In this document: piece after piece, positions 3,489-52,565 of the stretch
Layout of the letters: each line of letters begins with the position of its first letter
How positions within the stretch are numbered: the stretch's first letter is position 1
Source of the DNA: Sporosarcina sp. Te-1
GTDB lineage: Bacteria; Bacillota; Bacilli; Bacillales_A; Planococcaceae
NCBI RefSeq assembly: GCF_017498505.1
Contig: NZ_CP071798.1
Location: 2,811,501-2,875,500 of the forward strand
Length of the DNA stretch: 64,000 nt
Direction: 5' to 3'
Notes under the pieces: generated by a model
The model's input: the letters and a program-made list of their open reading frames with translations, nothing else
Databases searched by the model: none
What the model was told of the DNA's origin: nothing
Translations under genes and position numbers: made by a program

Positions 3489-5915
3489 ATGATTATAGAG
3501 GAATTAAAGAAGCATCCGTCTATTTATCTTCTCGTCAATCAAAAATTTTGCATATCCATGGCAGACCGGGACGGCATCCTTCTCCATGTAAATGAAAATT
3601 TTTGTGAGCTCACCCAATATGGTGCTTCTGAATTGATTGGGAAAGATTTTGGTTTTTTGAACCCTGACTATGATAAAGACATGTTCTTTGCCGAGATGAA
3701 CGAAGCTTTTCAGAACAACCAATACTGGCATCACAAAATTAGAAGTAAGGCCAAGGACGGTTCCCCCTATTGGGTAGAGGCGATCATCTCCCCCGTTTAC
3801 AATGAGCAAGGAGAATTTGACGGGTTTATTTCCGTAGATACAGACGTGACGGCATCGGAGCTGACGAGCAAACAATATATTGATATAGTTGAAAATCTAC
3901 GGAATATCGAAAATGCCCTCGATCATTCTTCCGTCGTTGCCATTACCGATCCAAAGGGTGTCATTACGTATGTGAACGAGAAGTTTTGCGAGCTCTCACA
4001 ATACGCGGCGACTGAACTGATTGGCAAAACACACCGTGTCGTCAACTCAGGGTACCATCCGAAAAGTTTCTTCCGAGAGATGTGGAAAACAATCGGAAAC
4101 GGAAACGTTTGGCAAGGAGATATTCAAAATCGGGCGAAGGACGGTTCACTCTACTGGGTAGCAACTACTATCGTTCCCTTCCTAGACAAAGAAGGGAAAC
4201 CGATTCAATATGTTGCGATCCGCCATGATATCACTGGGCGAAAACAAGCGGAGACGTCGCTTGAAATCGCATTGCGCCATGATTTCAGACAAACTGTAAA
4301 AAACTTGCAAAACGCCATTTTTAAATATAAATCGGATGACACCGGGTCCATCCAATTCACATTAGTGGAAGGAAAGACGGCAGAAAAATTAGGGATTACA
4401 GCTGCTTCTCTAAACAACGGGAAACTCAATGAGGAATACAGGCCGGAAGATCTTAACCGACTCGCCCCGTTTTTCCACCAAGCACTCGCTGGCGAGACGG
4501 TCCAATTCGAGCTTACCTATTCATCCATGACCTTTCTCGTTTACCTCTCCCCCATCTTCAGGGAGGGGCAAGTAGACGAAGTTGTCGGTACAGCCATCGA
4601 CATTACGGAACGAATGGAAGCAAAGAGGGTCATTGAACATATGGCCTATTACGATTACTTGACCGGGTTGCCAAATCGGCGGCTGCTGCAGGAAAAAGTG
4701 ACGGATTGGATCCAAGTGGATGACGCCCCATTCGCTTTGCTCTTCATGGACTTGGATCGGTTTAAAACGATCAATGATACGATGGGACACCATGTTGGGG
4801 ACGAATTATTGAAAGCAGTTGGCGAAAGATTATCCCTCTCCGTCCGGGAAGATGATTTTGTCGCCCGGCTGAGCGGAGATGAATTCGTCGTACTCGTCCG
4901 TTCAAGGGATCGTTCCGACGTTCAGGCTGTTGCCGAACGGATTGTGGAAGACCTGTCTTATCCGTACCGTTTGGGACAGCACGAAGTCTTCGTAGCGCCA
5001 AGCATCGGGATTAATTTCTACCCGGCGGACGCCACGGATTATAACACCCTTATGAGAAACGCGGATTCCGCGATGTACTTGGCAAAAGAATCCGGCCGGG
5101 GCACCTATCAATTTTTCACCAAACAATTGCATGACGAATTAGTAGAGCAGACTATGGTGGAGATGGAATTACGGCAAGCCTTGCAGCGCAATCAATTATC
5201 TCTCGTCTATCAACCACAATTCGATTTAAAAACGGGTAAGATGAAAGGAATGGAAGCCCTGCTCCGCTGGTATCATCCGATACGCGGATTTATCTCTCCC
5301 GCTTATCTCATACCGATTGCGGAGGACACGGGATTAATACTGCCTATCGGCCAATGGGTGCTGAAAACCGCATGCCAAGACGCAAAAGAATGGCAACGAC
5401 AAGGCTTACCACCCATGCGGATCAGCGTCAACGTATCCATTCGGCAATTCCGTCAACCCTCCTTCGTTTCAGATGTGAAAGCCATTTTGGAGGAAACCGG
5501 CCTTGAACCACAATATTTGAACTTGGAAATTACCGAAAGCATCATGTCTGATGTCCACCATTGCAAGCTGATTTTGCAAGAACTGCGCGGCCTGGGGGTC
5601 AACGCAAGCATCGACGACTTCGGAACAGGCTACTCATCCTTGATCTACTTAAGTAAATTTCCACTCACCCACTTAAAAATAGATCAAGCCTTCATTAGCG
5701 AACTGGACGAAAATAATACTATGATTGTCAAAGCTATTATTGACCTTGCCAGAAACCTGAATTTAAAAGTCGTCGCAGAAGGCGTCGAGACCGAAGATCA
5801 AGCACGGTTCCTCAACCAGCTTCATTGCGACGAAGTGCAAGGCTACCTTTATGCAAAACCCCTTTCCAAAGCTGATTTCACCCTCTTGTTGGAAGAACAA
5901 AAAAATGAGACGTGA
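3489..5915 (+). CDS. Multi-PAS GGDEF-EAL protein (cyclic-di-GMP turnover)
   Basis: An 808-residue protein with no membrane segment. Two clear PAS domains (residues ~15-125 and ~137-258, each ending in a DxT motif) are followed by a weaker third PAS (~260-375), GGDEF (~385-545) and EAL (~560-800). The EAL half keeps its catalytic signatures: MEALLRW (E589), ITES, IDDFGTGYSSL and VAEGVET, so phosphodiesterase activity is likely. The cyclase signature reads SGDEF (462-466), a first-position change that some active cyclases tolerate. The start ATG follows AAAGGAA. The gene stands alone and ends in a strong terminator, followed by a long tandem-repeat field. Confidence 0.88.
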   Translation: MIIEELKKHPSIYLLVNQKFCISMADRDGILLHVNENFCELTQYGASELIGKDFGFLNPDYDKDMFFAEMNEAFQNNQYWHHKIRSKAKDGSPYWVEAIISPVYNEQGEFDGFISVDTDVTASELTSKQYIDIVENLRNIENALDHSSVVAITDPKGVITYVNEKFCELSQYAATELIGKTHRVVNSGYHPKSFFREMWKTIGNGNVWQGDIQNRAKDGSLYWVATTIVPFLDKEGKPIQYVAIRHDITGRKQAETSLEIALRHDFRQTVKNLQNAIFKYKSDDTGSIQFTLVEGKTAEKLGITAASLNNGKLNEEYRPEDLNRLAPFFHQALAGETVQFELTYSSMTFLVYLSPIFREGQVDEVVGTAIDITERMEAKRVIEHMAYYDYLTGLPNRRLLQEKVTDWIQVDDAPFALLFMDLDRFKTINDTMGHHVGDELLKAVGERLSLSVREDDFVARLSGDEFVVLVRSRDRSDVQAVAERIVEDLSYPYRLGQHEVFVAPSIGINFYPADATDYNTLMRNADSAMYLAKESGRGTYQFFTKQLHDELVEQTMVEMELRQALQRNQLSLVYQPQFDLKTGKMKGMEALLRWYHPIRGFISPAYLIPIAEDTGLILPIGQWVLKTACQDAKEWQRQGLPPMRISVNVSIRQFRQPSFVSDVKAILEETGLEPQYLNLEITESIMSDVHHCKLILQELRGLGVNASIDDFGTGYSSLIYLSKFPLTHLKIDQAFISELDENNTMIVKAIIDLARNLNLKVVAEGVETEDQARFLNQLHCDEVQGYLYAKPLSKADFTLLLEEQKNET

Positions 5916-5949
5916 GCCGCGCCCTGTAACAGAGGGGCGGCTTTTTTTG
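5915..5949 (+). terminator. Terminator after GGDEF-EAL gene
   Basis: Stem AGCCGCGCCC / GGGGCGGCT (one bulge) followed by seven T, directly after the stop codon. Confidence 0.8.
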
Positions 5950-5992
5950 TAGATTTGGCGGCTCGGCGGTTGGACCAAGCGGGGCTGAGGCA

Positions 5993-6362
5993 GTTACGAG
6001 CGATGTGGAAGGAGATACGAGCGATGCGAGAGCAAATATGAGCGGTTCGCGGAATGATATGAGAGTTTTGGAAGCTGATACGAGCGGTTTGCCGAATGAT
6101 ATGAGAGATTCGGAGCAATACGAGCGGTTTGCCGAATGATATGAGAGATTCGGAGCAGATACGAGCGGTTCGCGGAATGATATGAGAGATTCGGAAGCAG
6201 ATACGAGCGGCTTGCCGAATGATATGAGAGATTCGGAAGCAGATACGAGCGGTTCGGGAATGATATGAGAGGAAAGCAGATACGAGCGGGACACTGGGCG
6301 ATATGAGCGGTTCCGAAGCTGATGGGAGCGGGACACAGGATGATACGAGCGATTCAAACAAG
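5993..6362. repeat. 21-bp tandem repeat array (18 degenerate units)
   Basis: Units begin near 5993, 6014, 6035, 6056, 6077, 6098, 6117, 6138, 6158, 6179, 6200, 6221, 6242, 6262, 6279, 6300, 6321 and 6342. Of 17 intervals, 13 are exactly 21 bases. The unit consensus is about GATAYGAGMGRTTCSGAANCA. Two sub-types alternate in the middle (GATACGAGCGGTT and GATATGAGAGATT), giving a 42-base higher-order repeat. Because 21 is divisible by three, long spurious frames open on the minus strand. The array starts about 45 bases after the terminator of the GGDEF-EAL gene. No function is known to me. Confidence 0.9.
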
Positions 6363-6530
6363 ATAGTCGATCAGCTATGCAACATGCTTGGATTGTCCTT
6401 GTTATGAACGGTGGACGAAGGTGGCGGATTCGCGGAAGGCCAACAAGTCGTTGAACACTCCATTTCGCGCTGAATGCTTTTGACAATCTATGGTTGGTTT
6501 CATGGGGAATACTTGATTTGAGAAATGAGT

Positions 6531-6593
6531 TTATGCGCAGGACTCGAGTCGTTATGCGCGGAGACAGGCACTTTATGGGCAGGTCAAAATACG
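6531..6593. repeat. Short 21-bp periodic repeat (3 units)
   Basis: Cores TTATGCGCAG, TTATGCGCGG and TTATGGGCAG begin at 6531, 6552 and 6573, exactly 21 bases apart, with unrelated sequence between. The period matches the larger array about 170 bases upstream but the core differs. The intervening sequence (6363-6530) shows nothing recognisable. Confidence 0.55.
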
Positions 6594-6740
6594 AGCATTT
6601 AGCAGGGGGTATCCATGATAAACACGAGCAGTCCCAGGACTGTAACAGCACTTTCATTAACAGCAATACAACTCAACCAGCATGATGGAGCACCCCTCAA
6701 CCCCAATTTAACTGAACCTTCCAATTTATCTTTTATTATA

Positions 6741-6770
6741 TAGTCAGATAGAATGTTTTTATGGTATAGT
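6741..6770 (+). promoter_or_regulatory. Possible promoter of the NCS2 permease gene
   Basis: TAGTCA at 6741-6746 and TATAGT at 6765-6770 with an 18-base spacer, about 60 bases before the start codon. There is no room for a purine riboswitch in this leader and I see none. Confidence 0.4.
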
Positions 6771-6830
6771 AGCACCTAATTGATCGTTTCGTAACCTAGA
6801 GTAAGAGCCTTGGGGAGGTTGGTGTTATGA

Positions 6831-8132
6831 ATGAGGTCTAGTCAAACCATTACGTTGTTGGCCGGGTTCCAATGGTTGTTTTTCATGTTTGCGAATACGG
6901 TGGTCATCCCAATCTCGGTGGGCAGTGCATTTGATTTGGAGCAGGTGGAAATTGTGTCGGCGATTCAACGGTCGTTCATTTTAACCGGGCTTGCTTGTGT
7001 GCTGCAAGGTTTGATTGGCCATCGGCTGCCGCTCATGGAAGGACAGTCGGGGCTTTGGTGGGGTGTGATCTTAAGTTTGGCGGCAACCGCGGATGCACTT
7101 GGGATGGATTTGGCGACTGTCGGCGGCAGTATTGCAGTGGGCGCCATGATATCGGGTGCGCTCGTGTCGGTTTTCGGTCTGTTGGGCGTCGGAGAACTGT
7201 TGAAGAAATGGTTTACGCCTGCCGTCATGTTTGTTTTTCTTTTATTGCTGGCCAATCAATTGATATCCATTTTTCTAAAAGGGATGGTCGGTTTGAATGA
7301 AGGGACTGCCATCGATTTGAAGATGGCCGGCTTTTCCTTTCTGCTCGCTGCCTTCACTATTCTCATCCATGTAAAGGGCAAAGGTCTCTTTAGCCGCTTA
7401 AATCTTTTGATTGGCATGGTGCTCGGCTGGATTGCTTCCTCTCTACTATTTCCAGAGGAAGCGGTGGAAGCCATACATACAACACCATTCCTGCAGTGGT
7501 TTCCATGGGGAGAGCCAACATTGCAGTGGGGCATTGTCCTAACTGTCATTATGACCGGTTTGCTGAATACTACAAATACGGTCGCTACATTGAAAGAATC
7601 GGAGGATCTGTTTGGAAAAGTGACGACCCGCTATCAATATAAATTCTCTTTCTTTTTAACCGGCATTTTAACAACCTTATCCGGAATGCTTGGTCTTGTC
7701 CCCTTTGCACCCTACGCCTCTTCTCTCGGTTTTCTCCAGTCGACCGGCATTCGTGAACGTACTCCTTTTTTCCTGGGGGCCGCCTTGTTCGTTATACTTG
7801 GTCTTTCCCCTTCGTTGACAGCCTTTTTTTCAACCATACCGCACAGCGTCGGCAATACCGTCTTGTTTGTCGCTTATTTGCAATTATTCCGGTCTACGCT
7901 CCGTAATATCGAGGGACTTTCATTTGATCCGAAAACGGTGTATCGGGTCGCTTTGCCCGCACTCGTTGGCTTAGCCGTTATGACCTTCCCGACATCTGTG
8001 TTCTCCTCCTTGCCGGAACTCATCCAGCCACTGTTATCGAATGGTTTGCTGATGGGCATCATGACCGCTTTAATGATGGAACTCTTCTACTGGTTTGGCC
8101 CGCGGATCAGGCACTTGCCAGCCAGAAAATGA
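6831..8132 (+). CDS. NCS2-family nucleobase permease (uracil/xanthine type)
   Basis: A 433-residue membrane protein with about 12-14 hydrophobic segments. The start (TLLAGFQWLFFMFANTVVIP) and the conserved QSGLWWGVILSLAAT region match nucleobase:cation symporters of the NCS2 family, which import purines or pyrimidines; which base is not decidable here. GGGGAGG lies 12 bases before the ATG at 6831. A better-spaced ATG at 6827 opens only a four-codon frame (MNEV, then TAG), so initiation may be inefficient or coupled. The gene ends about 40 bases before the Tet(M)-like gene and may be co-transcribed with it. Confidence 0.82.
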   Translation: MRSSQTITLLAGFQWLFFMFANTVVIPISVGSAFDLEQVEIVSAIQRSFILTGLACVLQGLIGHRLPLMEGQSGLWWGVILSLAATADALGMDLATVGGSIAVGAMISGALVSVFGLLGVGELLKKWFTPAVMFVFLLLLANQLISIFLKGMVGLNEGTAIDLKMAGFSFLLAAFTILIHVKGKGLFSRLNLLIGMVLGWIASSLLFPEEAVEAIHTTPFLQWFPWGEPTLQWGIVLTVIMTGLLNTTNTVATLKESEDLFGKVTTRYQYKFSFFLTGILTTLSGMLGLVPFAPYASSLGFLQSTGIRERTPFFLGAALFVILGLSPSLTAFFSTIPHSVGNTVLFVAYLQLFRSTLRNIEGLSFDPKTVYRVALPALVGLAVMTFPTSVFSSLPELIQPLLSNGLLMGIMTALMMELFYWFGPRIRHLPARK

Positions 8133-34401: not shown

Positions 34402-34485
34402 TTATCGGTCACTTGCAACTGGTTATCGATCAGTTGGTTGTCTCTATCGATCACTTTTCTAAATTTATCGGTCACCTTTGGAGTG
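34402..34485. repeat. 21-bp periodic array, TTATCGATCA type
   Basis: Units begin at 34402, 34423, 34444 and 34465, exactly 21 bases apart, with cores TTATCGGTCA, TTATCGATCA, CTATCGATCA and TTATCGGTCA. The remaining ~10 bases of each unit differ. Weak further copies may flank it (GATCGTTAAT near 34364 and GATTGTTGC near 34485). It lies about 60 bases after the terminator of the secreted-protein gene. The rest of 34340-34643 shows nothing else. Confidence 0.8.
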
Positions 34486-52460: not shown

Positions 52461-52565
52461 ATGAACGATACTATCTAGAAAGTGATCGATAAACTTGAGA
52501 AAACGAACGATAAACCCTTCAAACTGATCGATAACTCACTCTAATTTATTGATTAAACACCTATC
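52461..52565. repeat. 21-bp periodic array, TTATCGATCA type, opposite orientation
   Basis: Cores CGATA, CGATA, CGATA, CGATA and TGATT start at 52466, 52487, 52508, 52529 and 52550, exactly 21 bases apart. Read on the minus strand the second and fourth units give TTTATCGATCAC and TTATCGATCAG, the same core as the array at 34402. It begins 50 bases after a strong plus-strand terminator. Confidence 0.8.

Follow-up and report, generated by a model that had tools for sequence, protein, structure and literature searches.

Arrays of short cores at two-turn spacing behind gene ends in Sporosarcina and other Bacillales

The phased array at positions 5994 to 6363 of the window (the whole stretch of 64,000 nucleotides of Sporosarcina sp. 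Te-1 analysed here) is one copy of a family of arrays with several cores, rather than a lone array. The constant feature of this family is its period of two helical turns, not any single core, and its members occur in Planococcaceae and some other Bacillales. We propose, with moderate confidence, that the arrays are a genome-wide element of double-stranded DNA in which a bending or wrapping protein would occupy the phased cores where transcription units end.

The window array and its family

The features surrounding the window array are as follows.

3489..5915, + strand: PAS-GGDEF-EAL gene of 808 amino acids, upstream of the array, with its stop at 5915
5920..5948, + strand: terminator-like hairpin (5920-5939) and T-run, separating the array from the stop codon upstream, from a consensus scan
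5994..6363, + strand: phased array with core [AT]TA[CT]GAG[CA]G, period 21, alternating GAGCG and GAGAG sub-types and a 42-bp super-period
6531..6580, + strand: three sister-type cores, TTATGCGC, TTATGCGC and TTATGGGC, seen by sequence inspection
6831..8132, + strand: xanthine/uracil permease family gene of 433 amino acids, downstream of the array

A scan for the core [AT]TA[CT]GAG[CA]G, allowing at most one mismatch, located 17 cores, which start at 5994, 6015, 6036, 6057, 6078, 6099, 6118, 6139, 6159, 6180, 6201, 6222, 6243, 6263, 6280, 6301 and 6343; the degenerate unit GATGGGAGC near 6321 brings the array to 18 units. Thirteen of the 17 intervals between these units are exactly 21 bp and the remaining four are 17, 19, 20 and 20 bp, which bears out the counts of the preliminary description, made from the sequence alone. 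Its super-period of 42 bases was recovered by TRF (period 42, 6.4 copies, 88% matches, span 6031-6289), which also reported periods of 83 (twice) and 123. Of 19 occurrences of the motif GATAYGAG in the window, 14 fall inside the array; 100 dinucleotide shuffles of the window gave 3.7 occurrences on average and never more than 10. As first described, the array is intergenic: the PAS-GGDEF-EAL stop at 5915, the hairpin, the array and the permease start at 6831 follow one another in that order. The three sister-type cores (6531, 6552 and 6573) stand in the same gap behind the main array, in steps of exactly 21 bp.

Searches among 72,556 plasmid and 50,697 phage records returned no DNA similar to window positions 5900-6830, and Rfam gave no match at its gathering score for positions 5700-7000 (best 15.4 bits against 39); a sub-threshold snoRNA match in this interval was taken as chance. 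The same gap holds CGCTGAATGCTTTT at 6468-6481, which recurs beside the arrays at the same place in two relatives (L290 and L291) and also at another place of the own genome (L093), perhaps as an additional dispersed repeat.

The own genome, a single contig of 4,297,762 bases, was analysed for pairs of cores 21 bp apart. With at most three mismatches in total, the two strands gave 192 and 184 pairs, and a reversed control 33 and 60; a stricter pattern gave 102 and 106 against 1 and 1. Eighteen places were fetched from the core-pair matches listed, and 15 of them contained chains of three or more cores; with the window, this makes 16 arrays of the first core type. The own genome thus holds at least 16 such arrays, ranging from 5 cores (L045) to 36 (L043), with spacers that are mostly array-specific and local higher-order repeats in many. 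A second, sister core, TTATGCGCG, surfaced through a control pattern and is close to the first, TAYGMGCG being common to both. It forms 26 arrays in 20 fetched regions, of which 15 have seven units (an approximate count, the finder having missed one additional upstream unit in L080 and L097) and the rest 5 to 20. The possibility raised at the outset, that the repeat might be unique to this locus, is therefore false, with many arrays in the own genome and in relatives.

Four Rfam matches were obtained at ten array loci, none overlapping an array. A cyclic-di-GMP-II riboswitch lies near the array of one locus (L095 3317-3399), and matches to 6S RNA and a cobalamin riboswitch fall elsewhere in the loci examined (L080 523-705, L094 5657-5844). 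Closely similar hairpins, AATCAGGTG...GAAAAAC...GTTTTTC...CACCTGA, stand directly behind three of the own-genome arrays (L041, L043 and L048).

A scan blind to the core searched for four copies of a 9-mer at a constant lag, over lags 12-44, in 804,095 bases from three Sporosarcina genomes (an even sample of G000, the window, and contig starts of G013 and G021), with L274 and L277 dropped because of coding repeats. It returned 11 matches at lag 21, two of them the window array itself, one each at lags 41 and 42, and zero at other lags; one block-shuffle of the same input gave no match at lag 21. A five-copy variant (lags 13-33, no loci dropped) gave 13 matches at lag 21 and one at 18. The cores recovered in this way were TTACCACCG, CGGTGATAA, GTGCAAGCAAA, AAACGACYAA, AGTTKCCCT, TGAWCGATAA and that of the window array. 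The period of 21 is genome-wide and is kept under several cores. The genomes G013 and G021 have 0 and 1 matches with the first-core pattern, yet carry phased arrays with other cores. The two loci dropped, L274 and L277 of G013, hold long coding repeats with periods of 36, 27 and 18, collagen-like by reading of the sequence.

Two further phased arrays lie in the window, with one core type on opposite strands, unlike the core of the window array.

34402..34474, + strand: second phased array, four TTATCGRTCA-like cores in exact 21-bp steps
52462..52534, - strand: third phased array, four TGAWCGATAA cores (as read on the + strand), 21 bp apart

We traced the distribution of the arrays through the class. 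At least ten first-core matches, both strands summed, occur in 20 of 36 congeners against 1 of 24 other class members, the latter with 10 matches and 3 in its control; ribosomal RNA accounts for a few such matches per genome, and some backwards-pattern controls are contaminated by matches to other core types. A strict three-unit pattern singled out 7 of 398 class genomes, six from the own family and the seventh from another family; in the own genus, 3 of 11 sampled members have it. Among the matches of this same pattern that were listed, named GTDB contigs belong to Sporosarcina, Bhargavaea, Ureibacillus, Paenisporosarcina, Lysinibacillus, Metabacillus, Neobacillus, Rossellomorea, Amphibacillus, Salsuginibacillus, Scopulibacillus, Fictibacillus and Bacillus thermotolerans, with single matches in unrelated groups, among them Streptomyces, Nocardia and Treponema (four looked at). 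One genus (g32) has a core of its own, CGCGAGTAT.

The lag scan of other family members gave five matches at lag 21 and zero at other lags in G234 (140 kb), one at lag 21 in G237 (80 kb), none in G231 (80 kb), and none apart from runs of N in G196 and G217 (69 and 80 kb). Outside the family, G544, G561 and G547 had no lag-21 match in 380 kb, runs of N aside; G561 and G547 together gave three matches, at lags 24, 30 and 36. The matches in G196, G217 and G544 that consist of N were rejected as artefact. On many contigs of a further genome (G028), near-identical two-core pieces with TATGAGCG are dispersed as if recently spread, and variants of TATGATCA, likewise dispersed, stand at array ends (L146, L147).

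Core constraint and the slippage alternative

The period is held tightly in the shorter arrays. In the 22 sister-core arrays of nine units or fewer, all 128 intervals are 20 or 21 bp, 27 of them 20 bp, as counted by a finder that took intervals of 18-23 bp and whose chains any other interval would break. Spacer identity within these arrays is 36%, against 26% by chance. Sister-core units carry 1.1-1.9 bits at core positions and less than 0.3 bits at 10 of 12 spacer positions. These results uphold the near-constant core at two-turn spacing of the preliminary description, with the core conserved and the spacers variable.

Divergence between species follows the same division. In seven orthologous pairs of Bhargavaea elements (G091, G106, G111, G120, G070 and G186, genus label g31, the assignment to Bhargavaea being our inference), 14 of 315 core sites differ (4.4%), 49 of 346 spacer sites (14.2%), 132 of 703 near-flank sites (18.8%) and 335 of 2496 sites further away (core versus spacer, p=1.7e-5), in a count from which L123/L124 and L138 were dropped, in which L121 enters two of the seven pairs and in which one place may be represented by several pairs from different species. 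The cores are constrained between Bhargavaea species, and the rates are those of Bhargavaea elements. At the place of the window array, the two closest relatives tested (L290 and L291), whose permease is 89-90% identical, have arrays too, of 8 and 6 units. Their core is that of the window array, their spacers are different, and each array follows the same gene and terminator. Copy number at this place is thus 17, 8 and 6 in three species. Among the ten loci next in line, L292 has only a weak four-core chain, downstream of the permease, and the other nine (L293-L301) have no chain of four with the window-array core.

These observations bear on the explanation that the arrays are functionless minisatellites, generated by slippage, unequal exchange and occasional seeding, with core similarity reflecting descent. 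Against our main reading and in favour of this one, arrays of the window type are partly homogenised, spacers included; long arrays show local homogenisation and higher-order repeats, copy number changes at one place as slippage gives, and arrays in relatives can be longer, one place having 16 cores in one genome and 29 in another. Slippage would not, however, keep core and period while spacers diverge, would not favour a single lag under unrelated cores, and would not produce a core change rate one third of that of the spacers. We therefore regard a purely neutral origin as unlikely. The preliminary description had named variation by simple slippage alone as grounds for abandoning its view; slippage does add to copy-number change, but period and core are held as spacers diverge.

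Placement at gene ends and mode of action

We compared the gaps that hold arrays with intergenic gaps in general. The 37 array places of the two core types fall in 23 co-directional, 11 convergent and 3 divergent gaps, against 111, 29 and 55 of 195 sampled gaps of at least 100 bp. The convergent excess (p=0.035) and the divergent deficit (p=0.007) come from a modest test with a home-made gene caller, in which the genes called on the left of L041 and L081 are short and doubtful. The array is closer to the upstream stop than to the downstream start in 21 of the 23 co-directional gaps, tested against an even split, and its strand is that of the genes in 14 of the 23. Terminator-like hairpins, seen by eye, adjoin some arrays. 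The arrays thus sit behind gene ends, are rare in divergent gaps and have no strand preference.

The indifference to strand, the two-turn period and the folding of the window array, which as RNA shows no excess over shuffles on either strand (z -0.36 and +0.63), together favour an element that acts as DNA. Three unit sets have a second rise in A/T content at unit positions 11-13; among A/T harmonics, 10.5 bp is strongest in sister-core and Bhargavaea units, and not in units of the window-array type.

Based on these observations, we envisage the following mechanism. Cores of about 9-10 bp, close behind gene ends and terminators, recur in steps of 20-21 bp or two helical turns, a spacing that places all cores on one face of the DNA. 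A sequence-reading or DNA-bending or wrapping protein would occupy the phased cores, a bent or wrapped nucleoprotein patch would form, and this patch would act where transcription units end, on the topology or organisation of the DNA there. The several unrelated cores fit poorly with one binding protein.

An element acting as RNA in read-through or 3'-UTR transcripts, in which spacers or inverted cores pair and the cores are presented as motifs, can be argued from Bhargavaea elements. In 16 of 18 elements of this set (L133, where no array was found, was dropped) the first unit is an inverted core, with pairing at 10-12 of 12 positions; the remaining two elements pair at 5. The inverted copy changes with the core type, and in L122 both arms have changed together at one pair; the inverted first core and this co-change suit a hairpin too, and the unit may be either a dyad protein site or a true hairpin. 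In the 15 seven-unit arrays spacers 2 and 3 are complementary beyond permutation (z -4.2, 21 pairs tested), with weak complementarity between spacers 5-6 and 6-7 (z -2.2 and -2.3); the DNA reading does not account for the complementarity of spacers 2 and 3. Several results argue against the RNA explanation: the window array folds no better than its shuffles, array strand is indifferent to gene strand, adjacent spacers lack regular complementarity array by array, and arrays often lie beyond a terminator-like hairpin, an uncounted impression. A general fold of alternating spacer hairpins, favoured at one stage, is retained only as part of this rival in view of the same irregularity of adjacent spacers, the small number of significant pairs among the 21 and the shuffle-like folding of the window array. 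We consider an RNA element improbable.

As a special case of our main reading, the arrays could be sites that DNA gyrase prefers to wrap, which would relieve positive supercoils where genes end. The length of DNA wrapped by gyrase is about 140 bp (PMC11626157), to which seven 21-bp units come close, and a preprint (PMC12324340; compare the preprint PMC12393610) describes a preference of gyrases for GC periodic at 10-11 bp. The 10.5-bp harmonic in two of three unit sets and the convergent and 3'-end placement would also fit. The specific conserved cores, though, exceed any known requirement of gyrase. Gyrase is moreover universal whereas the arrays are not, as the 380 kb from three other families illustrate with zero lag-21 matches, and Bhargavaea elements have mostly five units while long arrays exceed one wrap. 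We judge this special case quite improbable. A protein-coding heptad repeat (21 bp being seven codons) is scarcely credible: although minus-strand frames of 170 and 262 codons span the window array, units of 17, 19 and 20 bp shift the cores through all three frames, every minus frame of the L290 orthologue is interrupted by stops, Pfam gives no match and 27 of the 128 sister-core intervals are 20 bp, which agrees with the original judgement that the array is not coding and makes such a role very unlikely.

Returning to the proposal of protein-occupied DNA, we tentatively extend it to the possibility that Planococcaceae and some other Bacillales have extragenic elements of a class of their own: two-turn-phased arrays whose cores (TTATGCGCG, WTAYGAGMG, TTAYCACCG, TTATCGATCA, GTGCAAGCAAA and others) have diversified by lineage, perhaps along with co-diversifying wrapping or bending proteins that mark transcription-unit ends. 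If true, the bacterial chromosome would carry positioned, wrapped nucleoprotein patches. Known bacterial extragenic repeats are mostly palindromes, mobile elements or products of slippage; here two-turn spacing is the sole period in excess and is kept under unrelated cores, which, in a family that has received little study, points to a candidate DNA-protein system with an architectural role where transcription units end.

Comparison with known repeat systems

A published description of such arrays was not found among titles and abstracts of the open-licence literature, and an account elsewhere is quite possible; neither there nor in Rfam did we find a named element with the array consensus, the other outcome that the preliminary description had set against itself. 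Resemblances to DnaA boxes and to Chi were considered and set aside.

CRISPR loci consist of near-identical repeats of about 25-40 bp and unique spacers of similar length. The arrays likewise have a constant and a variable part at regular spacing, but with imperfect, variable cores of about 9 bp and variable parts of 11-12 bp; CRISPR was rejected on these sizes, as it had been at first sight. Plasmid iterons and partition-site repeats are direct repeats near two helical turns, with their sites on one face. Our arrays differ in standing at dozens of chromosomal intergenic places, the window array having no adjoining replication or partition gene. Bacterial minisatellites or VNTRs such as MIRU are intergenic tandem repeats with copy-number change. 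In contrast, the arrays hold core and period as spacers diverge, under several unrelated cores, and the whole unit is not homogenised as slippage alone would have it, though long arrays are partly so.

REP and BIME elements of Enterobacteria and other bacteria are bound or cleaved by gyrase, IHF or Pol I. Like them, the arrays are extragenic and multi-copy, lie at gene 3' ends and in convergent gaps, and have lineage-specific sequences. According to two papers, REP/BIME often lie between convergent genes and are bound by gyrase, and their cleavage at gene ends is proposed to relieve supercoils (PMC1525189, PMC3733652). The arrays have a comparable placement, with 11 of 37 convergent, 3 of 37 divergent and 21 of 23 nearer the upstream stop. 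The REP unit itself is a palindrome of 20-40 bp (PMC3733652), whereas the arrays repeat a non-palindromic core in direct orientation every 21 bp, the spacers being free to vary; the 16 first-core arrays are direct repeats with no conserved palindrome, and Bhargavaea elements have one inverted unit only. We infer that the arrays resemble REP/BIME in role and are not members of that group.
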